Source: Acinetobacter ursingii DSM 16037 = CIP 107286
Lineage (GTDB): Bacteria > Pseudomonadota > Gammaproteobacteria > Pseudomonadales > Moraxellaceae
Assembly (NCBI RefSeq): GCF_000368825.1
Contig: NZ_KB849717.1
Coordinates: forward strand, 520,063 to 584,062
Reading direction: 5' to 3'
Length of the DNA stretch: 64,000 nucleotides
The position numbers were made by a program, and so were the translations under genes. The notes beneath the pieces are model-generated. The model searched no databases and was not told the origin of the DNA. It worked only from the letters and a program-made list of their open reading frames with translations. Positions 1 through 12,568 of this stretch are shown one piece after another (position 1 is the stretch's first letter; each line of letters starts with the position of its first letter).

Positions 1-29
1 TCACAAAAATTTATGTGATGACTGATTTA

Positions 30-238
30 TTTCTAAATGGCGTATGCCGCCATGAACTGACCCTGTGCTTCATTTGCTTTTTCAGCTTCTTTCTAAATGG
101 CGTATGCCGCCATGAACATACACCTATGTTTGCCAATGCTGCAAATGTTTTTCTAAATGGCGTATGCCGCCATGAACTATTTCTTTCCCTCAAACGCTCA
201 CTGGATGGTGTTTCTAAATGGCGTATGCCGCCATGAAC
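30..238 (-). CRISPR. Type I-F CRISPR array, four repeats visible
   Basis: Four identical 28-bp repeats lie at 30-57, 90-117, 150-177 and 211-238. They are separated by spacers of 32, 32 and 33 bp. Read on the minus strand each repeat begins GTTCATGGCGG and ends CCATTTAGAAA. It folds as a 6-bp stem ATGGCG/CGCCAT with a GCATA loop, the usual substrate shape for Cas6f, and the last eight bases would be the 5' handle of the crRNA. Bases 1-29 fit the start of another spacer, so the array probably continues beyond the window. The leader-side repeat is the one at 211-238, and no repeat is degenerate, which also suggests the leader-distal end is not in view. Confidence 0.97.
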
Positions 239-370
239 AGTAAGAATAAAGCAAAAAATAAAGTTATAACAGTGCTTTATCCCTAAAAAGTATAAAATAC
301 CCAAAGTTTTAAAGCAAAGTTATAACTTATTGATTTTATTAAGCTGTTAAAGAGTGTAAAAAATATTGGG
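239..370 (-). promoter_or_regulatory. Probable CRISPR leader
   Basis: This AT-rich stretch lies between the cas6f stop codon and the first repeat of the array as transcribed on the minus strand, where a type I-F leader should be. It has runs of A/T and two direct copies of AAAGTTATAAC at 260-270 and 316-326. Such repeated motifs could be integration-complex or IHF contacts, but that is inference. I could not fix a promoter sequence with confidence. Confidence 0.6.
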
Positions 371-964
371 TTAAAACTCAGGTACTGTGGATGTACGACT
401 TAATCCATAGCTTCCAAATTTTCCAATATTTGCTTCATCAACACGTTTTTTTCCAATAATCAAACGGAAGTTCATATCATTGGTTTGACTTTTCATATTG
501 ATATAAGGTTCAAAGGTCTCCATCAGATCCAATGCTTTAAAGTGTTCCTGTGCTTCTTCAATTGAAATTCCACGGCGTTCTGCCTGATGAACAACACGCT
601 GCTCAACCGTCAATTTTGGATTAACTTTAAAATAAGTAGCATAGCCGTTGATCTTATCCTCAGGAACTTTACGAGCAGATAAGATATGTACATAATCTTG
701 CAGCCTTGCTAACCAATGAGTTAGATTCAGTTGCTCTAATGCTTCGACTGAATCCGCAAAAATACGAATTTTATCGCCTAAATAACCCAATTTTTTCTGC
801 TGAATTAAGCGATATTTAGGAAAAGATACACCATAGGCAATCTTTCCTTGTTCATCGGCTTGTTCAGCAAAAGCAATATGGAGCTGAGTATAAACTTTTG
901 ACCAAAGCTCAAAGGATGAAAAATCAGGATTATCAATCAGTGTTAATTCAATATAATAAGTCAT
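371..964 (-). CDS. cas6f: Cas6f (Csy4) crRNA endoribonuclease
   Basis: This enzyme processes the CRISPR transcript: it cuts 3' of the repeat hairpin and stays bound as the Cascade head. I start at the ATG at 964, giving 197 aa. That start has a GGGA ribosome site and puts a histidine at residue 29, the position of the catalytic His in Pseudomonas Csy4; the upstream ATG at 997 would overlap cas5fv. An arginine-rich helix around residues 123-131 fits the hairpin-binding helix of the family. The C terminus GSYGLSRTSTVPEF is a typical Csy4 ending. It is the last gene of the leftward cas operon, 10 bp after cas5fv, and sits next to the array. Confidence 0.95.
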   Translation of the reverse strand: MTYYIELTLIDNPDFSSFELWSKVYTQLHIAFAEQADEQGKIAYGVSFPKYRLIQQKKLGYLGDKIRIFADSVEALEQLNLTHWLARLQDYVHILSARKVPEDKINGYATYFKVNPKLTVEQRVVHQAERRGISIEEAQEHFKALDLMETFEPYINMKSQTNDMNFRLIIGKKRVDEANIGKFGSYGLSRTSTVPEF

Positions 965-974
965 GATCATCCCT

Positions 975-1979
975 TTAAAGTCGTATGTTTTTAACATAAG
1001 CTAGACCTTTTTTACCAAGGTAAAAAGCCGATACACCCGCATTTTCAATCTTTTCTTCCAAATCCCTAGCCTGATCTTTAGAAATATCAAGATTTATAAT
1101 GAGTTGACCACTAGCTTTATGAAGTAGTTTTTTTACTTCACCCTCACCTTTTAAGAACTTAGAACTGATATAAGGGTTTCCCCAAACAATCTTCTGCTGC
1201 CCAGTCGTAAATCTTTCCATTAGATTTTTAGGTGTAAAACCATTATGTGAAATACCTGTTAATCCACCTCTAGACGCTCGAATAACAGTAGTATCGTACT
1301 GTTCAGTCAATCTATCTAATTTTAAATATAAAGCTGAACAGTAAAGTGGGAGAACACTGATTTTATTAGCAGATTCTTTCAGAGCGAAGTTTGGATAACG
1401 GCTCGATAAAGTTTCTGCCAAATAATTAATTTCATCACTTACAGGAACTTTAATCTTTTTAACTTCTTCTAGTCTGTCTAAAATACCGAGTGGATCAAGA
1501 ATAGAATCTTTTGCAGATGAAATTTTATTGTCTTTAATAAATTGACATAATTCATCTAAATTCATCCATAACACATCCCAGAATTCCTTTGCATAACTTA
1601 CAGTAAGCCAAGGATCACTTAACTTAATCATTCCTGTAAAAGAATTCTGATCTGTACTACCTGAGATATTTCTAAGATAAACCGTTTCCTGACTGAGAAT
1701 AGACCTATCAATAATATCTTCTTCATTTAAAACCTTTTCAATTTCCTTGAAATAATAATTTGAAGAATTTCTAACATCATAGAGTTTTCTTTGTTCTCCA
1801 ATAAGTCTATTCAAAACCCCCATTACAGTATTTTTCGTAATAGCCCTATATTTATAATTGTCTACTTTTTTATCGCCCAATGCAGTCATCGATCCAATAA
1901 AGTTTCGTTTAGTTGTATTATCTTCCCCATCTAAAAACGAGTTACGCCACGAGGAATCATATTCAATAATAATCTGCAT
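975..1979 (-). CDS. cas5fv: Cas5fv, type I-F2 Cascade subunit
   Basis: A 334-aa protein that begins MQIIIEYDSSWRNSF and ends NAGVSAFYLGKKGLAYVKNIRL-like residues, which I recognise as the Cas5fv family of the minimal I-Fv system of Shewanella putrefaciens. In that system Cas5fv caps the crRNA 5' handle, and an inserted alpha-helical domain takes over the DNA and PAM contacts of the absent large subunit Cas8f. The start is the ATG at 1979, preceded by GAGGTGA; a GTG one codon upstream is possible. It lies between cas7fv (11-bp gap) and cas6f. Assignment rests on sequence resemblance from memory and on operon position. Confidence 0.85.
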   Translation of the reverse strand: MQIIIEYDSSWRNSFLDGEDNTTKRNFIGSMTALGDKKVDNYKYRAITKNTVMGVLNRLIGEQRKLYDVRNSSNYYFKEIEKVLNEEDIIDRSILSQETVYLRNISGSTDQNSFTGMIKLSDPWLTVSYAKEFWDVLWMNLDELCQFIKDNKISSAKDSILDPLGILDRLEEVKKIKVPVSDEINYLAETLSSRYPNFALKESANKISVLPLYCSALYLKLDRLTEQYDTTVIRASRGGLTGISHNGFTPKNLMERFTTGQQKIVWGNPYISSKFLKGEGEVKKLLHKASGQLIINLDISKDQARDLEEKIENAGVSAFYLGKKGLAYVKNIRL

Positions 1980-1990
1980 CACTCACCTCA

Positions 1991-2980
1991 TTATTGCGCT
2001 TCAAAATAAACCGCATAATCCGATTGAGGTTCAGAGTTTACTTGATCGGGATGACGTTTAATCCGCATCATTTTATTGCTATCGTTATAATCTATCTCCA
2101 AAGTATCAACACACATATAACCCTTGGCTTGTTTGATCACTAATTCTTGAAGCATGCTTAAAGTTTCATTGACGAGTATATCAATCGCTATATTATCTAA
2201 TAGAATTCCAACTTCACCCTCATTAAAAATCGTACCTTTACGCACATAATTTTTATGGAAAACAGCTTTTGGTTCTTTAGTTGGATCTAAACTTTTAATA
2301 AAGTTTTGTACAGTTTCAGCAATTTTCTCACCTTCACCTTCTTTAATCAGCATCGATGCACGATCGAATTTTTTATCTAATGAAATAAATTGAAGCTGTT
2401 CAATACTGATTGAGCCATAAGCTTCATACTCTGTATCACCAAAAGTTGTTTTAGAGAAAATTGAATTTTCACCACGTTTATACGTTTTTGTACCATCTGC
2501 TTGTATAATTTCTTCACTTGAACTCGCATTAGAAAGCTGTTCAAAGTTCCCATTACCCAATTGATCAACGAAATCTGTAATCAATAGCGGACTTGTACGT
2601 TTACATTGGCTTGAAGGTACAACATAACCACGGATTAAACCTGTAACTGATGCTAAAACATCAATCAAATTTTTATCTTTGGCGTAATGTAAATCAAATG
2701 ACTGATCACGGAATAGATGATGACGTATACAGTTTTGACTAATGTACAATGGAGTTTCATCAAAATTAATATCAGATGCTTCTTTTCGATATTTATATCC
2801 TGTCTCTTCTTTGATCTTACCTGATAAGTTACTAAATCCACGCAACTTAGGTAAAGTATGATTATCAACAGTCTTACCATCATTTCCCGTCAATGATGTT
2901 GGACCATTCCAATTCACCACACCATAACCATATGCCGTGATTTTAAAGTCAACGCTTTTTATGCCAGTTACTTTAGCCAT
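1991..2980 (-). CDS. cas7fv: Cas7fv, type I-F2 Cascade backbone
   Basis: This 329-aa protein is the backbone subunit that polymerises along the crRNA spacer. The N terminus [20 protein letters not shown] and the stretch [15 protein letters not shown] (about residues 75-90) match my memory of Cas7fv from S. putrefaciens; both are Csy3-related RAMP proteins. The gene follows cas2-3 with a single base between stop and start, and its GAGG ribosome site lies in the end of cas2-3, so translation is probably coupled. In ordinary type I-F1 loci csy1 and csy2 would precede this gene; here there is no room for them. Confidence 0.9.
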
Positions 2981-2981
2981 G

Positions 2982-5936
2982 TTATTTTTCCTCTTGTTCT
3001 GTTGTTAAAAAGTTTAATTTATCCAAAGATATAGAACCGATTGGCTGTTTATCTGTAATTGCGTAATAAATTGCCTCAGGATGACGAACGCCTGTTCCAC
3101 CCACTTTATTGAGATCATCTTCGATATAGCTTAGATACAAAGGAAAATCTGCATCTCTTGCATAGTTTTCCAAGACTGCACAACGAGCTTGCTGTTTTTT
3201 CTCAGGAATCCCTTTGACAGGATGGGTTGAATCAACATTGCCATGCTTTTGTGCAATAAAATTGATCAAACCTAAATCTTTGATAATATTTAAAGATTCT
3301 GTCAGATTGTCATATTCAGTTGTATCATCCACAGGTGGTGTATAAGCATATTTATTTTCAAAAATCGGCTGTTTAAAATCATTCAAATTTAAAACTGCCA
3401 ATTGCACAAAACGACTATCACCCCGTAATGAGTTTTTACTGATCTTCGACTTTCTTTCAGCCATTTTAGATTTCATCACTTTGGTGGGTTCAGTCACTTT
3501 TTTATTCATTAAATCAATGCTTTTCTTTAATGCTTTATCCATATCTTGGATAACAGCAGACCTATCATCTAACTGTACTTGCTTTTTATAAAATTCACGA
3601 TAAAGCTTATAGAGTTCAGCAAGCTTAAATACCTTTTCATTTAAACGATCTTGTAAAAAGTCATACCATGCTTTGGTTGTTTGTAAACTATTTAATTGAT
3701 TTAAAAAATAAGCCAATGAACCTTTACAACTGCCATTTTTCAAATTTTCAGTAATTGCAACTTGTAAGATATTAACCGCTTGATTTTCACCAAAACGATC
3801 TAAGCGCCCCATACGCTGTAACATATTTTCAGGTGAAGTCATTTCACTTAACATATGTTTACTTGTAATATTTAATGAAGCTTGAACAATAGGTCCACTC
3901 CTTAAAACATCATATTTTTGTGAACCTTTCTTTTTAAATGAATCAAAGACTTCATCAAACCATCTCTTTTTATCACTGCGCTTATATTTGGAGTGGAATA
4001 AGACACTATTTTCATGATCTTTCTGATAAACAAAGCCAAGTTGTGCTGTTTGTGCTGTATTGGAAATAATAAAAGTTTGATCTGAGTAAGTTTTATAAAA
4101 TGGGTTTCCCTCAATCACAGATTCATCATATTCAATAAAATCAATTTTATAATGACTTTGATTAAAGGATGACATTTCAACCACATCATCTTCATGCACA
4201 TTTAAAATGTTTTCCAAATAATAGTAATGTGGCGTTGCAGATACCAGTAAGGTATTTTTTTCATATTGTTTACGCATGTTCTTATTGGCAATCAACTCTG
4301 CAAATAGTAGATTAAAAATCTCCATTCCAATATATTCATGGTATTCATCAAATACCACATGTGCATCCATAAAAGGTAATAGACTATTCACATTGGTATG
4401 CGTGACAATTGAACCTAAAATTTGGTCAATTGTGGTGACAACGACATCACCTGAAAAAGGTTCTGGCTCTTTTTTAATTTTTCCATTTTCATTTATGTAT
4501 TTAAATTCGCCTGTCAAAATTTCAACTTTTGCATCAGGTAAATAATCCTGTGTTAATTCCTCAAAAATTCCTTGGCAGACTTGCACACGTGGGCAAACCC
4601 AAATAATTTTCTTAGCATCTTTAAGTCTTGCCCATTCCAAAGCAATTTTAGTTTTACCACATCCCGCAGGACCTGCAAGCACAGCAATATCTTTTAAATC
4701 TGCCAGTTGCCTTGCAACTTCATTTTGCTTTTGTGTACGTTCACTATCAGGAAATTTTGTTGAGGCATTTTTTAAGTGAACCGATAAATCAGATAAAATT
4801 TCTTGATCATCTAACAATTCATCTAAGCGTTTTTCAACAATATAATCCATTAAATCTTGGGCTGTCTGCTTTGATACAATTCGGTCTGCACTAATCACAC
4901 AAGCACGTAATAAATTATGCTGTGCATTGTTATCTATTTTATTTCTGAGTTGAGAAGTTTCATCGTTATTGCTGTATAGCTTAAACTCAGGGAATTCCTT
5001 ACCTTTATAAATATAGTTAAAGTCTTCCAATTGATCCGCAAAAGATTCTATTTCCCAATTTAAATTTTTCTCAATAACATCAATATCTTCATAATGTTTA
5101 GCGACTGAATTTATTCGCTTGAGTAATGATGTTGTTTGTTTAATGATATTTTCAAATTGTTCATTCGAAATATTCTTAGCCAAAAAATCATATGCTTTAT
5201 GTACACCTGAAAACTCATCATTAGAACGATATGGTTTCGCATGATGCCAATAGATCACATGCTGTAAACACTCTTTTTGCCTATTGTTCAATCCTTTGCA
5301 TTGTTTTTCAAAAAAGTTAAACAATATCAATGAAATTTCATTATGACGAGGATGTTTTTCAAAGGTGAATTTTACATCAATATGCTGACCATCTTCTTCA
5401 GGATCTTTTTGCTTACCTTTTTTCACCCAATCCTGAAAATGAGGATCTAACTTACCTAAGTCATGTAAACAACCTGCTAGAAATGCAACTTTAGAGAGGT
5501 TTTCATATTCATTATTATCGACGACTTTTTTAAACAATTGCTGTGCTAAATAACCAATTGCAAATGAATGCTCTGCTAAAGGTTGTAATTGAGTATTTGC
5601 ATAAAACTCATCTTTCTTCGCTTTCATTGTCATTACATCCATAAATACTTCTTTTTGTGTACTATTCACAGGCACAATCCCCTGTATATTAAACTTATTC
5701 CGATTTCCAACGACCCATAGCAACTCACTTCTACGACGACCACGAATCCAGTGGCAACTGACTGCCGTACTTTTAGTGACAGTCTTTCTCAACAATTTTT
5801 TAACAGCAATCAAACCATCTTCCGTAATGACTGTTTGCCATGTGTTATCCCCAATACGATCAGCAAATGCATCTAACACACGACGAGTTCGAGGAATCGC
5901 TTTCTTTTCGCATTGGGAAATAAAGGTGACAATCAT
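2982..5936 (-). CDS. cas2-3: Cas2-Cas3 fusion, nuclease-helicase
   Basis: A fusion typical of type I-F, 984 aa. Residues 1-90 are the Cas2 part ([20 protein letters not shown]), needed with Cas1 for spacer integration. The HD nuclease follows, with H123 and H158-D159 (CLHDLGK) and HH at 231-232. The superfamily 2 helicase has Walker A GPAGCGKT at 422-429, DEYH at 530-533 and a motif [13 protein letters not shown] near 745. It degrades target DNA after Cascade recruits it. I start at the ATG at 5936, which overlaps the cas1 stop as ATGA; a longer start at 5969 would run into cas1. All motifs look intact. Confidence 0.97.
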
Positions 5937-6907
5937 AATTCGCTCTCCAAATTTGGAAAGTTTCGACACGCCTGTAATTTCACCTGTTCAAACATCCAGT
6001 CCAGACACCGATATTCTGTAAATTTCTGCAAAAGCTGCTGACGAAACTCCTGCTCAGACATCCCCTCTTTTGCACAAATAAAAGCCCACGGTAAAACCAC
6101 TGCATCCTTTATTAAATCAGCCACATCAAACACTAATGCACCACGACGGGTTTTGCCATGCATGACTGCAAAACTGTGTGAAATACCTAATACCCAAAGT
6201 GTGGTTGCTGCCAGTCCATAAGCCAGATAATTGCCATGATTCAAAAAGTCATTCGCTAAATCCCCTTGTTCAGGATTTCGTTCAAAACTGAGTTTGCAAC
6301 GCGTCGCTGCGATTTTATAAAGTTGCTTGGTCGTCTGCGCTTCAGCAAGCAACAAATCACCGACTTTGCTTTGATGTGGAATTTTCTTTTCAAAACTAGT
6401 TAAAGCTTGTTCGATATCTGCATCATCAAGATAGAAGCCCTCATCTTTGAGGTCTTTGTCTTTTGCCCAGATTCTGCGGATAAACTCGATACGGGCTATT
6501 TGAAAAGCTTTTGCCACTTCCAAACGTTTAGCATCGTCAAACCAAAAACTCATCCAGCCTTGCATGTACTCCGTGGGTCGATATTCACTTTGTGGCATCA
6601 TCCATTCAATTTCAGATCCCATAAACAGTGGCGTCCCACCTCCACCTGTAAACCCCACCAATACCCCTGCACTGGCAAGCATTCGCATGGCTGCTTGGGT
6701 AATCGATGTCCCCGTTCCTAATAAAATTACTGTGGTATTGGCAATCGGAATATTCCAGTATTGGTTTTCGTTTTTGGCCTCAGTTAAATATAAAACGCGA
6801 CCATCTTTTTGCATGACTCTGCAATGTTCAAGATAATAAAGATTGGCTCGCTTAGAATGTAATATCGCTTTTAAGTCTGATGGTGAAAGTTGTTCCATTT
6901 TTATCAT
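5933..6907 (-). CDS. cas1: Cas1 integrase, type I-F
   Basis: First gene of the leftward cas operon, 324 aa. Cas1 with the Cas2 part of Cas2-3 inserts new spacers at the leader end of the array. The family's metal ligands are visible: Glu in LLLAEAQTTK, His in LNHGNYLAYG and Asp in FDVADLIKD. A second in-frame ATG at 6898 is also possible; neither start has a strong ribosome site. The stop overlaps the cas2-3 start by four bases. Having an intact cas1 argues that the locus can still adapt and separates it from transposon-borne type I-F3 systems, which usually lack adaptation genes. Confidence 0.96.
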   Translation of the reverse strand: MIKMEQLSPSDLKAILHSKRANLYYLEHCRVMQKDGRVLYLTEAKNENQYWNIPIANTTVILLGTGTSITQAAMRMLASAGVLVGFTGGGGTPLFMGSEIEWMMPQSEYRPTEYMQGWMSFWFDDAKRLEVAKAFQIARIEFIRRIWAKDKDLKDEGFYLDDADIEQALTSFEKKIPHQSKVGDLLLAEAQTTKQLYKIAATRCKLSFERNPEQGDLANDFLNHGNYLAYGLAATTLWVLGISHSFAVMHGKTRRGALVFDVADLIKDAVVLPWAFICAKEGMSEQEFRQQLLQKFTEYRCLDWMFEQVKLQACRNFPNLESEL

Positions 6908-7468
6908 CGTATTGCTTTGATGTTATTAACTAAATTAACATACGTCCGTTTTTGTTTTACATCATTTTTTCTGTTAAACGTCATAAAATGTCGTGTATAT
7001 TTATCCTTTAAGACAAAAATTATTTTAATTTTCGATTATCACTATTCGCTTTAAATCAATCATAAAATCACTTTCATATTGATCAAATTCTCTTTGTCCC
7101 ACAGATATCAGTTTAGAATAAATTTTATTATTACAGATCGATCTAACGGGTAATTCAATCAAGCAATACCGCCATCAATCTCTAATTTTTATAATGATAA
7201 ATGAATAAAGTAAGATGATTAGATCAAGCTGTATTAGTACAATATTTTGAACGTTTTATGATTTTTTAATCATTTTAATTTCAAATCTTTCAAAGTCTTT
7301 TTATGATTTTCACTAATTTATCAATAAATTTAAGCAAATTTTCAGAAAAACTTGAGTTAAAAACTCAAGTTTTCTCTATATAACAGTAAAAGATTGTTAT
7401 GATCTATCTGACATATAAACAATGATGATTTCTTTTTTAACACCATTTTGTTCTTTGGACACATTTTC
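6908..7468. other. AT-rich intergenic region between cas1 and kefC
   Basis: About 560 bp of very AT-rich DNA separates the divergent cas1 and antiporter genes and must hold both promoters. I find no convincing ORF. It contains a small inverted repeat ATGATT-TTTT-AATCAT at 7258-7273 and a terminator-like hairpin at 7347-7373. I cannot place promoter boxes reliably in this base composition. Confidence 0.5.
7347..7376 (+). terminator. Orphan terminator-like hairpin upstream of kefC
   Basis: An 11-bp perfect stem AAAACTTGAGT / ACTCAAGTTTT with a TAAAA loop is followed by TTTTC on the plus strand. No annotated gene ends just before it. It could end a short unannotated RNA, act in the kefC 5' leader, or be a relic of a lost gene. 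Confidence 0.4.
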
Positions 7469-9301
7469 ATGGCAGCAGAAGCACATTCTCTAGGACTACT
7501 CAGCCCTGTTATTTTACTGGCTGCGGCTGTGATCGCAGTCCCAATTTTTAAACGCTTAGGGCTTGGATCAGTCCTTGGTTATCTTATTGCAGGCTTAATT
7601 ATTGGTCCATTTGGTTTTGCGTTTATCCATGATCCCGCTTCTATTTTACATATCGCTGAACTCGGCATTGTCATGTATCTCTTTATCATTGGGATGGAGA
7701 TGCAGCCTTCTCATTTATGGAATATGCGACGTGATATTTTTGGTCTAGGCACACTACAAATTACGTTTTGTACAATAGGACTCACTGCAATTGGTTTACT
7801 GTATGGTTTTGCATGGCAAATTGCCTTTATTGGTGCGGCAGGTTTTGTTCTCACTTCAACGGCCATCGTGATGCAAATTTTGGGAGATCGTGGTGATTTA
7901 AGTCAGCCCAATGGCCAAAAAATTGTCGCTATTTTATTGTTTGAAGATCTACTGATTGTGCCATTGCTCGCCATTGTTGCCTTTATGTCTCCGAATCAAG
8001 TGGTTGAAAGTACACCAGATCGTTTAAAAGATATCGGGATTGCACTGGTAGCTATCGCAGGTCTCATTGCGGCTGGCTGTTGGCTGCTCAATCCATTATT
8101 TAAAGTTCTGGCGGCTGCCAAAGCGCGTGAAGTCATGACAGCCGCAGCATTGTTGGTCGTTTTAGGCGCAGCATTACTCATGCAAGTTAGTGGTTTGTCT
8201 ATGGCAATGGGCGCATTCCTTGCAGGTGTTTTACTCTCTCAATCGACTTTTCGTCATCAGATTGAAGCTGATATTGAACCATTTCGCGGTATTTTATTAG
8301 GTCTATTTTTCCTTAGTGTAGGAATGTCACTTAATCTATCGGTTGTACAAAATAACTGGCTCCTTATTCTCAGTAGCGTCATTGCGTTGATGTTCACCAA
8401 AGCTGTCCTCATTTATTTTGTCGCGCGTCTCACGAAAAGTAGTCATGCAGTTGCTCTAGATCGTGCGGTACTGATGGCACAAGGGGGTGAGTTTGCATTT
8501 GTGCTTTTTACAGCCGCCGCAAGTGCGCAAGTGATTGATGAAACGATCAAATCCAATCTCACGGCGATTGTGGTTTTGTCCATGATTTTTACCCCCCTGC
8601 TTGGTATTTTGGCCAAACGTTTCATCAGTCCAAAGAGTTCTGCCTCTCTTGACCATATCGAAGTCGCCAATAATTTACATGGACGTGTACTACTCATCGG
8701 ATTTGGACGTTTTGGGCAAGTTGCCAGTCAGCTTTTACTGGCGCGTGGCGTGGATGTCACATTGATCGACACTGATATCAACATGATTCAAAATGCCACA
8801 AAATTTGGTTTCAAAATTTATTATGGTGATGGGACTCGTTTAGATATTTTGCATGCATCTGGAGCCGCAAATGCTCAGGCAATTATGGTATGTGTGGATG
8901 ATAAAGAAACGACCAACCGTATCGTTGAATTAGTCAAACATGAATTTCCACTGGCCAAATTGTTAGTGCGCTCTTATGACCGTGAACATTCATTATCATT
9001 GGTCAAAAAAGATGTCGATTACCAAATTCGTGAAACCTTTGAATCAGCATTGCTGTTTGGCGGTGCCACACTTGATGCTTTGGGAGTAGAGAGTAGTGAA
9101 ATCCACGCGATCACCAAAGAAATACGAGAATTGGATAAAGAGCGTTTTGAAACTGAAATTGCAGCGGATGACATAGATGCAGGTATAGGTTTTCAATTTT
9201 CAAACACTGAACATCAACCTCGTCCAACTTCACCACTGATCAAACCTAAAACCCACAGTCAAATTTTAAATGATTCAGATAAGTCGGCTATGAAACAATA
9301 A
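7469..9301 (+). CDS. Monovalent cation:proton antiporter, KefB/KefC type
   Basis: A 610-aa inner-membrane protein of the CPA2 family. The first ~380 residues are a Na+/H+ exchanger domain with about 12 hydrophobic segments, for example the GYLIAGLIIGPFGF segment. A TrkA-N (RCK) domain follows with the Rossmann motif GFGRFG near residue 410. The likely role is potassium or sodium efflux in exchange for protons, gated by nucleotide or glutathione adducts as in Kef systems; substrate is not deducible here. I prefer the ATG at 7469; a TTG at 7448 is in frame. No KefF/KefG ancillary gene is adjacent. Confidence 0.9.
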   Translation: MAAEAHSLGLLSPVILLAAAVIAVPIFKRLGLGSVLGYLIAGLIIGPFGFAFIHDPASILHIAELGIVMYLFIIGMEMQPSHLWNMRRDIFGLGTLQITFCTIGLTAIGLLYGFAWQIAFIGAAGFVLTSTAIVMQILGDRGDLSQPNGQKIVAILLFEDLLIVPLLAIVAFMSPNQVVESTPDRLKDIGIALVAIAGLIAAGCWLLNPLFKVLAAAKAREVMTAAALLVVLGAALLMQVSGLSMAMGAFLAGVLLSQSTFRHQIEADIEPFRGILLGLFFLSVGMSLNLSVVQNNWLLILSSVIALMFTKAVLIYFVARLTKSSHAVALDRAVLMAQGGEFAFVLFTAAASAQVIDETIKSNLTAIVVLSMIFTPLLGILAKRFISPKSSASLDHIEVANNLHGRVLLIGFGRFGQVASQLLLARGVDVTLIDTDINMIQNATKFGFKIYYGDGTRLDILHASGAANAQAIMVCVDDKETTNRIVELVKHEFPLAKLLVRSYDREHSLSLVKKDVDYQIRETFESALLFGGATLDALGVESSEIHAITKEIRELDKERFETEIAADDIDAGIGFQFSNTEHQPRPTSPLIKPKTHSQILNDSDKSAMKQ

Positions 9302-9335
9302 CTGAATCTTTATATCCTTCTTTTCCGCAAATATG

Positions 9336-9372
9336 AATAAAACCGAGTTAGACATGATTCGGTTTTATTTTT
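9336..9372. terminator. Bidirectional terminator between convergent genes
   Basis: Arms AATAAAACCGA (9336-9346) and TCGGTTTTATT (9359-9369) are perfectly complementary with a 12-base loop, with T tracts on both strands. It ends the antiporter gene and overlaps the last codons of the convergent small gene at 9365-9709. Confidence 0.85.
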
Positions 9373-9709
9373 TTATTGTTAAAAGACTATCAGCTGGTGT
9401 GACGACTGCTCTTTTCTGTTGTCTTTGATACAAGCAAAGTTCACGTCCTTTTTGATTCTTCATATGTTTCTGCGGATAATTTCCTTCTAGGACTACAGCC
9501 GAATAACCCACACGATCATCAAATAACATAATATCGCTGACTGCTTTTACATTTTTTAAGGTACTGGCTTTCGCACATGCAGTTTTAATCGCCTGATCGT
9601 GCTGTTTCCATGCCTGATCTGAACTTGCATGCGTTATTCCTGCAACAACACTACATACAATTAATGATAATTTAAAAAAAATTGACGCCTTATCTTTACA
9701 GTATTTCAT
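9365..9709 (-). CDS. Small secreted protein of unknown function
   Basis: A 114-aa protein with a clear signal peptide: a lysine-rich start, a hydrophobic core (FFKLSLIVCSVVAGI) and a likely cleavage after THA. The mature part is basic and has two cysteines (in KTACAKAS and GRELCLYQ) that could form a disulfide in the periplasm. I do not recognise a family. The stop codon lies inside the shared terminator. It stands alone, convergent with the antiporter gene. Confidence 0.75.
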   Translation of the reverse strand: MKYCKDKASIFFKLSLIVCSVVAGITHASSDQAWKQHDQAIKTACAKASTLKNVKAVSDIMLFDDRVGYSAVVLEGNYPQKHMKNQKGRELCLYQRQQKRAVVTPADSLLTIKK

Positions 9710-10055
9710 TATAAATACTCAATCGTTTATTCACATTTATCATGGAATGAATCAGGACAAAGGCATAGTGTTTCACACAAGATTTAACAGCATTACTTGA
9801 AAGGATTACATATGTAGTAGTGAAAGCAGATGAACTCTAAATATTTTATTTTAATTATGCAGGAGACCGCTTTGATCATTGTTTAAATCCTCTTGATTAT
9901 TCTCCCATAGAGGAGAAAAATAAAGAGGGTCTAAACAATTATGAAAGAAGTCTAATGTCTTTGAGTAAAACAACTTTAGACCAAGTATTCTCACTTTGAA
10001 TTATACTTTTAAAAGAAATCATTCTTGATCAAGCTATCTTTCTAATCCATACAAC
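9710..10055. other. Intergenic region holding a palindromic element
   Basis: This 346-bp gap upstream of the small secreted gene and downstream of cntB holds no ORF that I would support. Its main content is the 90-bp imperfect palindrome at 9864-9953. Confidence 0.6.
9864..9953. repeat. Long imperfect palindrome, copy 1
   Basis: Two arms of about 43 bp flank an ATAG centre at 9907-9910. The left arm starts AGACCGCTTTGATCATTG and the right arm, reverse complemented, starts AGACTTCTTTCATAATTG; roughly 34 of 43 positions agree. The right arm closely matches the left arm of a second element at 45188-45264, so this is a dispersed family and not a chance hairpin. No target duplication or transposase is evident. 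MITE-like or REP-like element is the best guess. Confidence 0.7.
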
Positions 10056-11012
10056 TTATAAATTCAATACTAATTTTTTCCCTTTAGCACGTGACACGCA
10101 GATCATCATGGACTGCTGTGATGCTTTTTCATCATCACTCAGATACTGATCGAAATGCTCTGCCTCACCTTCCAGAATCATGGTTTCACAAGTCCCACAC
10201 ACCCCTTCACGACATAAACACTCCACATCAATGTTGAGGAGTTCAATTGCCTGTAAAATGGTTTGATTAGCTTGAACTTCGACTTGTTGATTGGATTTCG
10301 CAAGTACCACTGTGAATGCTTCACCTTCTTCTGGTACAGTAGATGCAAACTGTTCCCAATGAATATATTCATCGCGGTAACGATGATAATTACAACGATC
10401 GATCACCGCATCAATCATTGGCTTAGGCCCACACACATACACATGCGTACCTTTGGGTTGAGACCCAATCAATTGATTCAGATCAAGACATTTTCCATCC
10501 GAATCGATATAGCTGAAAATATGTTCAGCATGTTTTTGTTTGAGCTCTTCTAAGAGTGCAGCATGCTCTGACGAACGATAGGCATAATGCAATTCATAAT
10601 CAGCACCGCGTACAGCCAACTCATCCATTTGCGGTACAAACGGAGTAATCCCGATACCTCCCGCAATTAAAATATGTTTCTCACCATCTGCCGCCAATGG
10701 AAACAAATTCTTCGGTTCAGAAATAAGAATCTCACAGCCTTCATTGCATTGATCATGCATAAAAACTGAACCACCTTTACCTTCAATATCTTTACGGACA
10801 CAGACTTGGTAAGTCGATAGATCTTGAGCACAGCTCATCAATGAATAGGCATTGGATAGCTGGTCATTCATTTTCACAATAATATGACTACCACCATTGA
10901 ATTGAGGGAAATTTTGTCCGTCCTGACGTTTAAATGTAAACCGTTTGATTAGTGGAGTCAGTTGCTCTACCCGTGTGACCACTGATGCAAACATTTCATA
11001 ATGACTAGCCAT
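10056..11012 (-). CDS. cntB: Carnitine monooxygenase reductase subunit CntB
   Basis: A 318-aa iron-sulfur flavoprotein that passes electrons from NAD(P)H to the CntA Rieske oxygenase. The N-terminal two thirds is a ferredoxin-reductase fold, with FTFKRQDGQ, GGSHIIVK and the nucleotide motif LIAGGIGITPFVPQ. The C-terminal plant-type [2Fe-2S] domain has C267-x4-C272-x2-C275-x29-C305. This reductase-then-ferredoxin order is that of class IA oxygenase reductases such as VanB and CntB. It is the last gene of the carnitine operon, with a GAGG ribosome site. A different Rieske partner is possible from the fold alone, but cntA in the same operon makes the call strong. Confidence 0.92.
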   Translation of the reverse strand: MASHYEMFASVVTRVEQLTPLIKRFTFKRQDGQNFPQFNGGSHIIVKMNDQLSNAYSLMSCAQDLSTYQVCVRKDIEGKGGSVFMHDQCNEGCEILISEPKNLFPLAADGEKHILIAGGIGITPFVPQMDELAVRGADYELHYAYRSSEHAALLEELKQKHAEHIFSYIDSDGKCLDLNQLIGSQPKGTHVYVCGPKPMIDAVIDRCNYHRYRDEYIHWEQFASTVPEEGEAFTVVLAKSNQQVEVQANQTILQAIELLNIDVECLCREGVCGTCETMILEGEAEHFDQYLSDDEKASQQSMMICVSRAKGKKLVLNL

Positions 11013-11076
11013 GTCTAAATCCTCTTTACCACATTCTGCTCATCTAAGCATTCTCTAGTTTTAAGCACATATTGTA

Positions 11077-11106
11077 GATTGGGCTGTCCTCGAAAACAGC
11101 CCAATC
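11077..11106 (-). other. Intercistronic hairpin between aldehyde dehydrogenase gene and cntB
   Basis: Perfect 11-bp arms GATTGGGCTGT and ACAGCCCAATC enclose an 8-base loop. There is no T tract on the minus strand, so it is more likely an mRNA stability or processing hairpin within the operon than a full terminator. Confidence 0.55.
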
Positions 11107-11116
11107 CACTGTGTCT

Positions 11117-12568
11117 CTACAATCCTAAACACATATATTTAATAGTCATAAATTCTTCTAAACCGTATTTAGAACCTTCACGCCCCACACCTGACTGTTT
11201 GACACCACCAAATGGTACAACTTCATTGGAAATAGCCGTTGAGTTCATTCCAACCATGCCATATTCCAGCTGTTCAGCGACACGCCAAATCCGTGAAATA
11301 TTTTCGCTATACACATAAGCCGCTAAACCAAAAATGGTATCGTTGGCTTGCGCCACCACATCCGCTTCATCTGTAAAGCGAATTAAAGGGGCTACAGGGC
11401 CAAAAATTTCTTCCTGAACAATGTCCATATCACGCGAAACATCGGTTAGAACCGTTGGTTCGAAGAAAGTTTGTCCAAGTGCATGTTGTTGACCACCGCA
11501 CGCCACTTGGGCACCTTTGCCACAGGCATCATCAATCAACTGTTTTGCTTTCAACACCGCTTTGTCATTGATTAATGGCCCAATCTGCACATTCGCTTCC
11601 AAACCATTGCCGATTTTGAATTTTTGTACTTCTTGCACAAATTTCTCGGTAAAGGCCTGATAAACCTTGTCGTGTACGTAGATTCGATTGGCACAAACAC
11701 AGGTTTGCCCTGCATTACGGAACTTGGCAAAGATTGCACCTTGTACCGCTTTATCCAGATCGGCATCATCAAAGATGATTAATGGTGCATTGCCGCCCAA
11801 TTCCAAAGCTAACTTTTTAATGGTGCCTGAACATTGCTGCATCAATAAACGACCCACAGGTGTAGAACCGGTAAAGGTCAGTTTTTTGACTTTTTCATGG
11901 CTAGTAAAGACCGAACCAATCTCTTGTGATTTGCCTGTCACCACATTAATGACACCCGCTGGGATACCTGCCATCTCTGCCAGCTTGGCAAGCGCAAATG
12001 CGCAATACGGCGTTTCATTGGCAGGTTTGATCACAATGCTACAGCCCGCTGCCAAAGCAGGTGCTGCTTTACGGGTAATCATCGCAATCGGGAAATTCCA
12101 CGGCGTAATGGCTGCAACCACGCCGACAGGCTCTTTGGTCACAATAAAACGCTGCTGACTGTTGGTGGTCGGAATCACATCGCCATAAACGCGTTTGCCT
12201 TCTTCAGCAAACCATTGAATAAATGAAGCCGCATATTTCACTTCACCCAATGCTTCGGCTAAAGGTTTACCCTGCTCAATGGTCATAATGCGTGCCAGTT
12301 CATCAGCATGACTCAAAACCAGTTGATACCAAGCCAATAACAGGTCTGCACGTTTTTGTGCGGTTAATCCTTTCCATGCAGCTAAAGCCTGATACGCGAC
12401 TTCGACTGCCTCGGTAGCTTCTGCTGCACCCATATTTGGAATGACGCCAATTTCTTCTCCTGTTGCAGGATTGGTCACAGCAATGGTGGCATTAGATTGT
12501 GCACTCACCCATTGACCATTGATCAGTCCGTGTTGTTGAAATAACGGACTTGCTTGCAAACTTGACAT
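11117..12568 (-). CDS. NAD(P)-dependent semialdehyde dehydrogenase, probably malic semialdehyde
   Basis: A 483-aa aldehyde dehydrogenase closest in style to succinate-semialdehyde dehydrogenase GabD. Catalytic residues are visible: E256 in LALELGGN and C290 in NAGQTCVCANR. The cofactor loop TPWNFPIAM is at 155-163. CntAB splits carnitine into trimethylamine and malic semialdehyde, so this enzyme in the same operon most likely oxidises that aldehyde to malate. The name rests on operon context; the sequence alone would also fit succinate or glutarate semialdehyde. Confidence 0.9.
   Translation of the reverse strand: MSSLQASPLFQQHGLINGQWVSAQSNATIAVTNPATGEEIGVIPNMGAAEATEAVEVAYQALAAWKGLTAQKRADLLLAWYQLVLSHADELARIMTIEQGKPLAEALGEVKYAASFIQWFAEEGKRVYGDVIPTTNSQQRFIVTKEPVGVVAAITPWNFPIAMITRKAAPALAAGCSIVIKPANETPYCAFALAKLAEMAGIPAGVINVVTGKSQEIGSVFTSHEKVKKLTFTGSTPVGRLLMQQCSGTIKKLALELGGNAPLIIFDDADLDKAVQGAIFAKFRNAGQTCVCANRIYVHDKVYQAFTEKFVQEVQKFKIGNGLEANVQIGPLINDKAVLKAKQLIDDACGKGAQVACGGQQHALGQTFFEPTVLTDVSRDMDIVQEEIFGPVAPLIRFTDEADVVAQANDTIFGLAAYVYSENISRIWRVAEQLEYGMVGMNSTAISNEVVPFGGVKQSGVGREGSKYGLEEFMTIKYMCLGL

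Follow-up and report, generated by a model that had tools for sequence, protein, structure and literature searches.

A stretch of 64,000 nucleotides from the genome of Acinetobacter ursingii DSM 16037 = CIP 107286 (in the following called the window) carries at its left end a CRISPR (clustered regularly interspaced short palindromic repeats)-Cas locus, which was compared with related loci. As judged from homology, it is a type I-F2 (I-Fv) locus without Cas8f and close to the complex of Shewanella putrefaciens. The window starts inside the CRISPR array, which lies downstream of the cas operon and has the same reading direction. The five cas genes are all encoded on the minus strand and have open reading frames; from the array side to the far end the order is leader, cas6f, cas5fv, cas7fv, cas2-3, and cas1. 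The type I-F cas1 gene extends from 5933 to 6907, cas2-3 from 2982 to 5936 with an ATG start (a longer form with a GTG start would begin at 5969), cas7fv from 1991 to 2980 (329 amino acids), cas5fv from 975 to 1979 (334 amino acids), and cas6f from 371 to 964. Between the stop of cas2-3 and the start of cas7fv there is a gap of one base.

The genes were assigned with profile searches, which yielded matches of Cas7fv to NF040577 (E 6e-144), of Cas5fv to PDLC02041 (E 4e-138), of Cas3fv to PDLC02033 (1570 bits), of Cas1fv to PDLC02026 (E 2e-188), and of Cas6f to TIGR02563 (E 3e-39). The NCBIfam I-F Cas3 model matched only the Cas2 domain of the window's cas2-3. The HD and helicase motifs of Cas2-3, H29 of Cas6f, and E189, H250, D261 and D264 of Cas1 were all located in the sequence. 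Presumably these are the catalytic residues, and those of Cas1 agree with the alignment to its nearest solved structure (3god, E 2e-111), which we take to be the Cas1 of Pseudomonas aeruginosa. An earlier note, made from the letters of this DNA alone, had described an operon of only these five genes beside an I-F array, a cas7fv gene starting one base past cas2-3, and intact catalytic motifs, and the operon, the gap, and the named motifs were all found. A search of positions 1-12000 of the window against Rfam gave no match at the gathering threshold. As an I-F2 locus it is ordinary, a member of an already known kind with intact genes.

The leader end of the array (31-239, minus strand) contains four repeats of 28 nucleotides at 31-58, 91-118, 151-178, and 212-239, which read GTTCATGGCGGCATACGCCATTTAGAAA in the sense of the CRISPR RNA (crRNA), and three whole spacers of 32, 32, and 33 nucleotides; at positions 1-30 the window includes part of a fourth spacer. 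The I-F repeat with its Cas6f hairpin and the spacer length of about 32 nucleotides agree with type I-F2. The genome record contains nine repeats in total, four in the window and five more 9.4-9.7 kb to the left, two of which are degenerate. As degenerate repeats mark the old end of the array, this end lies to the left, and the leader (240-370, minus strand) adjoins cas6f. Between the left part and the window part of the array the record has 9,400 consecutive N, which would leave room for some 157 units of 60 bases each; for comparison, at least 122 copies are present in the array of G046, a relative with an I-F2 locus. The claim that this is an intact copy with its array therefore held for the genes and for the four repeats in the window, but most of the array is unreadable, because the run of N interrupts it.

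The eight readable spacers were compared with phages, and six of them (all but T3 and the incomplete one at 1-30) also with viral contigs. Spacer T2 matched an IMG/VR contig at 31 of 32 positions, in a head-tail adaptor gene (phrog_71) and with CC at the place of the protospacer adjacent motif (PAM). T4 matched an Acinetobacter phage at 27 of 32 positions, in a gene that matches tail fibre proteins (phrog_817), again with CC, and T1 matched a viral contig at 28 of 32 positions with CT at this place. All three are situated at the old end of the array. A CC PAM was thus found in two of the three protospacers with at least 27 of 32 matching positions, in a set of only eight spacers. The remaining spacers gave partial matches or none, and the flanks examined there (S1, S2) were without CC; for the three whole spacers of the window no convincing target was found among phages and viral contigs. 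When four of the eight readable spacers (the three of the window and T2) were searched with up to three mismatches in 175 genomes of the genus, only their own array place was found, which gives no indication of self-targeting.

The locus could be a hybrid that uses a Cas8f encoded elsewhere. Coexistence of both subtypes is known, as in a survey of Acinetobacter baumannii 26 of 689 CRISPR-positive genomes had I-F1 together with I-F2 and 197 of 689 had I-F2 alone (PMC9428484). In the genome of A. ursingii (99% complete, 10 contigs, one unread array stretch), however, neither Csy1 nor Csy2, the presence of which characterizes type I-F1, gave any match, and a single Cas6f was found. The NCBIfam model of Csy1 misses the divergent Cas8f of the related locus in genome G143, yet the Csy2 model detects that locus (5e-88), and therefore an unlinked Cas8f set, be it of the usual or of the divergent kind, would be expected to give a match. 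A gene might be concealed in the unread stretch, which, however, has parts of one and the same array on both sides. In addition, Cas5fv carries the helical domain PF20158 (E 3e-57), which stands in for the large subunit (PMC6546366). The search for an unlinked cas8f, which the earlier note had proposed, was thus negative, and dependence on a distant Cas8f is regarded as extremely improbable.

Of the 175 Acinetobacter species genomes, 15 contained Cas7fv and 40 had a match to Csy1, and no genome belonged to both groups. The view that this minimal form is known from Shewanella understates its distribution: it is not rare in the genus, and I-F2 has been reported also from A. nosocomialis and A. 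calcoaceticus (PMC11035748) and from 13 strains of Vibrio cholerae (PMC6360697).

The proteins of the effector core were compared with the structures of the S. putrefaciens complex. On the sequence level Cas5fv matched 5o6u_F (E 3.5e-93), Cas7fv matched 5o6u_C (E 7e-149), and Cas2-3 matched 9g44_A over residues 115-993 (E 6e-243). The predicted structure of Cas5fv was of modest quality (predicted local distance difference test 71.7, predicted template modelling score 0.53). Its only Foldseek hits below 0.001 were 5o6u_F and 9g44_B, and although E was 7e-28 the superposition was poor (template modelling score 0.43); therefore, the sequence match is the preferred basis for the identity of Cas5fv. 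The anticipated structural match was hence obtained in part, since the model found the expected subunits and both proteins matched 5o6u by sequence, but the superposition of Cas5fv was poor and Cas7fv was matched by sequence alone. The assignment to type I-F2 without Cas8f stands, as neither a Cas8f set elsewhere nor a lack of similarity to Cas5fv and Cas7fv was found.

The PAM-site glutamine of Cas5fv is Q111 in the window. In the Cas5fv proteins of G159 (L057), G085 (L058), and G148 (L047) the corresponding position is occupied by P, P, and K, respectively, and because they lack the glutamine the PAM of these loci may differ. The spacing between cas2-3 and cas7fv, one base in the window, was 295-759 bases in G120 (L056), A. 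brisouii (L048), G005 (L060), and a Methyloprofundus metagenome-assembled genome (L033).

The I-F2 loci were compared with a sample of 38 I-F1 loci, which comprised all listed Csy1 places above 100 bits. From this comparison, I-F2 and I-F1 loci of Acinetobacter appear to have a common framework, consisting of cas1, the Cas2 domain, most of cas6f, the leader, and the repeat, around unrelated effector cores. The nearest framework partner of the window was the I-F1 locus of genome G030, which is located at the same chromosomal site. The nucleotide identity between the two was 92% upstream of cas1, 90-91.5% in cas1, and 81% in the Cas2 domain (codons 1-91 of cas2-3; 5664-5936, minus strand). In the core it was 45% in the next 600 nucleotides after the Cas2 domain and 46% in the last 600 nucleotides before cas6f, and beyond the core it was 90% in cas6f and 98% in the leader. 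The Cas3 part of cas2-3, which includes the HD nuclease and helicase by homology (2982-5663, minus strand), belongs to the core, and its identity to the I-F1 Cas3 sequences in the comparison did not exceed 19%; for the I-F2 loci in general the identity to the nearest I-F1 protein was 17-19%. In contrast, the Cas6f protein of the window was 89% identical to that of G030 and only 62% to the nearest I-F2 Cas6f.

A similar pattern, with high identity in cas1, the Cas2 domain, cas6f and the leader and 42-49% inside, was observed for G034 and G159 versus G040; 42-49% inside a highly identical flanking framework was also found for G085 versus G154, and for G123 versus G043 and G109. The repeat of the window is common to the I-F2 loci of G034 and G159 and to seven I-F1 loci, and a second and a third repeat family each include both subtypes as well. 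Taken together, closely related cas1, cas6 and leader sequences were found around unrelated effectors at one site, which is the pattern of an effector exchange in situ. The conclusion of the earlier note that nothing was lost by a visible deletion remains correct for the joint of cas2-3 and cas7fv, but it overlooks the core, which in such loci appears to be a block that is exchanged with I-F1 cores by recombination.

An alignment-based comparison revealed that the core has sharp borders within two genes, one just past codon 91 or so of cas2-3 and the other around codon 20 of cas6f. For cas2-3, 44 loci were included (G017, Methyloprofundus, G033, and genes below 900 amino acids were left out). 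The I-F1 and I-F2 proteins are similar over roughly the first 91 residues, and beyond about residue 100 no resemblance can be recognised. In blocks of ten residues, the excess identity within a core type was 0.01-0.04 in each block from 1 to 90 and then rose to 0.37 for 91-100 and to 0.84 for 101-110; the latter value is based on the small number of columns in which at least two core types have residues. The identity of the Cas2 domain to the nearest I-F1 protein was 95-99% in ten loci, including the window (97%, to G167); the broken second copy of G146 reached 90%, and G148, G003, G005, and Methyloprofundus had 67-77%. G017 was ignored here, as its partial gene scores 100% with everything. 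The genome G146 harbours two copies of the I-F2 locus (L051, L052) with nearly the same array, of which 94 spacers were read in each; in the second copy (L052) cas1, cas2-3, and cas6f are broken.

The cas6f border was analysed with 48 loci of the three main cores (two small Cas3 clusters with three loci, unlabelled loci, and Cas6f proteins below 150 amino acids were left out). The excess identity within a core type was 0.23 for residues 1-10 and 0.42 for residues 11-20, but only 0.04 for residues 21-30, and none of the following blocks exceeded 0.08. The first 20 residues thus have core-specific forms, and from the WSK-Y-QLH stretch on the sequence follows the repeat. In Mantel tests, residues 1-19 correlated with the core type (r 0.79, 48 loci) and not with the repeat (r 0.07, p 0.10), while residues 31 to the end correlated with the repeat (r 0.81, 44 loci). 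The nearest locus had the same core in 48 of 48 cases for residues 1-19 and in 36 of 48 for residues 31 to the end; for I-F2 alone the numbers were 15 of 15 and 10 of 15. The permutations were uncorrected for relatedness, and near-copies (G123/G166, G046/G146) inflate the nearest-neighbour counts.

One explanation for the deviating start of cas6f is that exchange took place at gene borders only, and that the N-terminus was co-adapted to the effector complex by point changes. The N-terminal segment might touch the last Cas7 subunit, and selection could in this way tie it to the core type. However, the step is abrupt also in the DNA: the first 57 nucleotides of the window's cas6f (908-964, minus strand) are 81% identical to the I-F2 gene of G034, the nearest sequence, and 46% to G030, whereas the remaining body from codon 20 to the stop (371-907, minus strand) is 95% identical to G030 and at most 67% to any other gene compared. 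At the protein level G034/G040 and G085/G154 show the same step. Co-adaptation by point changes is thus considered unlikely, and the first 57 nucleotides probably travel with the effector core. In the window this 5'-segment does not overlap with the preceding gene. Searches of the open-access literature yielded no description of the two joins within genes or of an N-terminus of Cas6f that is specific to the core, which is weak evidence of absence.

The gene trees are in conflict with the subtype. In the Cas6f tree (54 rows) the I-F2 label changes at least seven times, all changes being forced by well-supported branches, and a single I-F2 clade was rejected (approximately unbiased test, p 5e-63). 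In the Cas1 tree (47 rows) there are 11 changes, eight of them forced by well-supported branches, versus a mean of 11.6 for shuffled labels, and thus the I-F2 loci show no more clustering than expected at random. The placement of G148 and G149 in both trees and of Methyloprofundus in the Cas1 tree is unsure because of long branches. The Cas6f distance follows the repeat distance (r 0.78) and not the distinction between I-F2 and I-F1 (r 0.03, p 0.25), and also for Cas1 the correlation with the subtype was low (r 0.11, p 0.12); the subtype correlations included 39 loci, eight of which were I-F2. With five core labels instead of two, weak but nominally significant correlations were obtained (0.13 for Cas1, 0.19 for Cas6f).

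A gene-by-gene comparison of the I-F2 loci revealed jumps that no single history accounts for. Between G034 and G159 the protein identity is 99% for Cas1, 96% for Cas2-3, 67% for Cas7fv, 47% for Cas5fv, and 92% for Cas6f. Uneven identities of this kind would also be expected for an ordinary I-F2 locus that was inherited or transferred as a whole, if Cas5fv and Cas6f evolved faster under the pressure of phage anti-CRISPR proteins, and both indeed rank with the most variable proteins when I-F2 loci are compared and have a high nonsynonymous divergence. The synonymous divergence (dS) jumps as well, with 0.21 for cas2-3, 1.22 for cas7fv, 1.80 for cas5fv, and 0.18 for cas6f of this pair, which rules out faster protein evolution unless the mutation rates of neighbouring genes differ six- to tenfold. 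It is further contradicted by the conflicting gene trees and by the similarity of the cas6f body to a single I-F1 gene. Inheritance as a whole therefore has a very low probability. The jumps in identity and dS indicate, at the level of sequence comparison, that the cas7fv-cas5fv pair has been replaced within I-F2.

The chromosomal site carries different loci in different genomes. At its right flank there is a gene (7448-9301, plus strand, an open reading frame) for what we take to be a Kef-type transporter, and at the left flank, outside the window, there is presumably a pirin-like gene. In the window, G030, and G135 the locus lies between the kef and pirin genes, and in G038 kef is next to cas1 and pirin follows after the end of the array. 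G030, G135, and G038 all have I-F1 loci at this site, the latter two with a different I-F1 core. In G143 the same site is occupied by a third I-F type (L161, 5021-14015), which consists of cas1, cas6f, cas7f, cas5f, a divergent cas8f detected by the PADLOC model PDLC01425, and an oppositely read cas2-3, and which we take to be the published I-Fa. G007 and G153 have pieces of cas1 and cas2-3 like those of G143 beside the pirin gene, and G090 has the pirin gene with no cas match within the 20 kb examined.

Taken together, the locus most likely works like the I-F2 system of S. putrefaciens, and its core seems to be exchangeable as a block within a framework common with I-F1, a reading for which we estimate a probability of about 0.88. 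Several observations weigh against it. Some pairs are less clean: the leader identity of G120 is 46% to G174 and 54% to G020, the cas6f identity is 68% for G120 versus G174 and 66% for G146 versus G115, and upstream of cas1 the genomes G123, G120, and G046 are unlike their partners. The core identities stem from two 600-nucleotide stretches per core, compared without a shuffled control. On the protein level the Cas2 domain of the window is 87% identical to G030 and 97% to G167, and because its nearest relative is not G030 the framework does not originate from one source. Weak, nominally significant ties to the core exist also outside of it, for the Cas2 domain (r 0.12, p 0.018) and for Cas6f residues 31 to the end (r 0.09, p 0.015). 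The flanking genes of the window are less similar to G030 (kef 81%, pirin 88%, ldt 86%) than the framework is, which indicates that the framework itself was transferred; the nearest genome by flanking genes is G143, yet it has the third I-F locus type at this site. Hence, the core swap may have taken place in another lineage. The protospacer of T1, one of three strong matches, is without the CC PAM. Lastly, there was no spacer common to I-F1 and I-F2 among 2,704 spacers from 51 array pieces, which were collected with a strict repeat pattern from the stretches around the loci, and thus there is no sign that memory was kept through a swap. Stretches of at least 18 letters were common to three locus pairs with otherwise different spacers (besides the two copies in one genome), and the one I-F2/I-F1 pair among these, G034/G167, shares only a stretch of 18-19 nucleotides.

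As proposed from homology, transcription of the array would start from the leader (240-370) and proceed along the minus strand, Cas6f would cut at the repeat hairpin, Cas5fv would hold the 5'-end of the crRNA and read the CC/GG PAM, Cas7fv would form the backbone, and Cas2-3 would degrade the target. Homologous recombination in the conserved stretches of cas2-3 and cas6f presumably swaps whole cores and leaves both reading frames intact. It is tempting to speculate, and we consider it somewhat more probable than its opposite, that the core is a plug-in unit with two joins fixed inside genes, after Cas2 and about 20 codons into cas6f, and that Cas6f is a two-part adaptor, the first 20 residues of which fit the effector and the rest the repeat. 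A change of subtype would then take one recombination event, which could retain the spacers and the PAM and could thereby allow escape from subtype-specific anti-CRISPR proteins. The borders themselves come from the comparison across 44 (cas2-3) and 48 (cas6f) loci, and from them we infer the role of the joins. The value of the locus lies in these exchange borders and not in its subtype. As a recombinant, it illustrates clearly how in nature different CRISPR subtypes combine with the same repeat, the same crRNA-processing body, and the same acquisition gene. The two joins raise testable questions, namely whether the choice of the Cascade that Cas6f joins depends on its first 20 residues and whether the same array serves both cores, and they are natural borders for the construction of compact or hybrid type I tools.

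Compared with the I-F2 system of S. putrefaciens CN-32 (PDB 5o6u, 5o7h, 9g44), Cas5fv and Cas7fv of the window are homologous from end to end, the Cas3 part of Cas2-3 is homologous over residues 115-993, and the PAM-site glutamine has been kept (Q113 there, PMC6546366). In contrast, Cas7fv is about 14 residues longer around residues 150-170, and Cas6f shows no more than a remote similarity (5o6u_B, E 5e-9). Unlike the Shewanella system with CasDinG (PMC12714560), the locus has no visible DinG-type gene, and the DinG-type helicase C domain PF13307 was not detected in the genome with a model that matched in 10 of 14 control genomes. With G030 the locus has the flanking genes and a near-identical leader, cas1, and cas6f body in common, but the core of G030 consists of Cas3f, Csy1 (Cas8f), Csy2, and Csy3. 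The 28-nucleotide repeat is the same in the window, in G030, and in the subtype I-Fb of A. baumannii AYE (PMC4338279). A variant of type I-F that stands between I-F1 and I-F2 is noted in the 2025 classification. In-situ shuffling of effector modules is a described trend, with an example of a subtype II-C Cas9 (PMC6452270, PMC12669027), and the loci analysed here resemble it in that cas1, array, and cas6 stay and the effector is exchanged. As cas2 and cas3 are one gene in these loci, the first join must fall inside a reading frame; in contrast to the described shuffling, the second join is also situated inside a gene, in cas6f.

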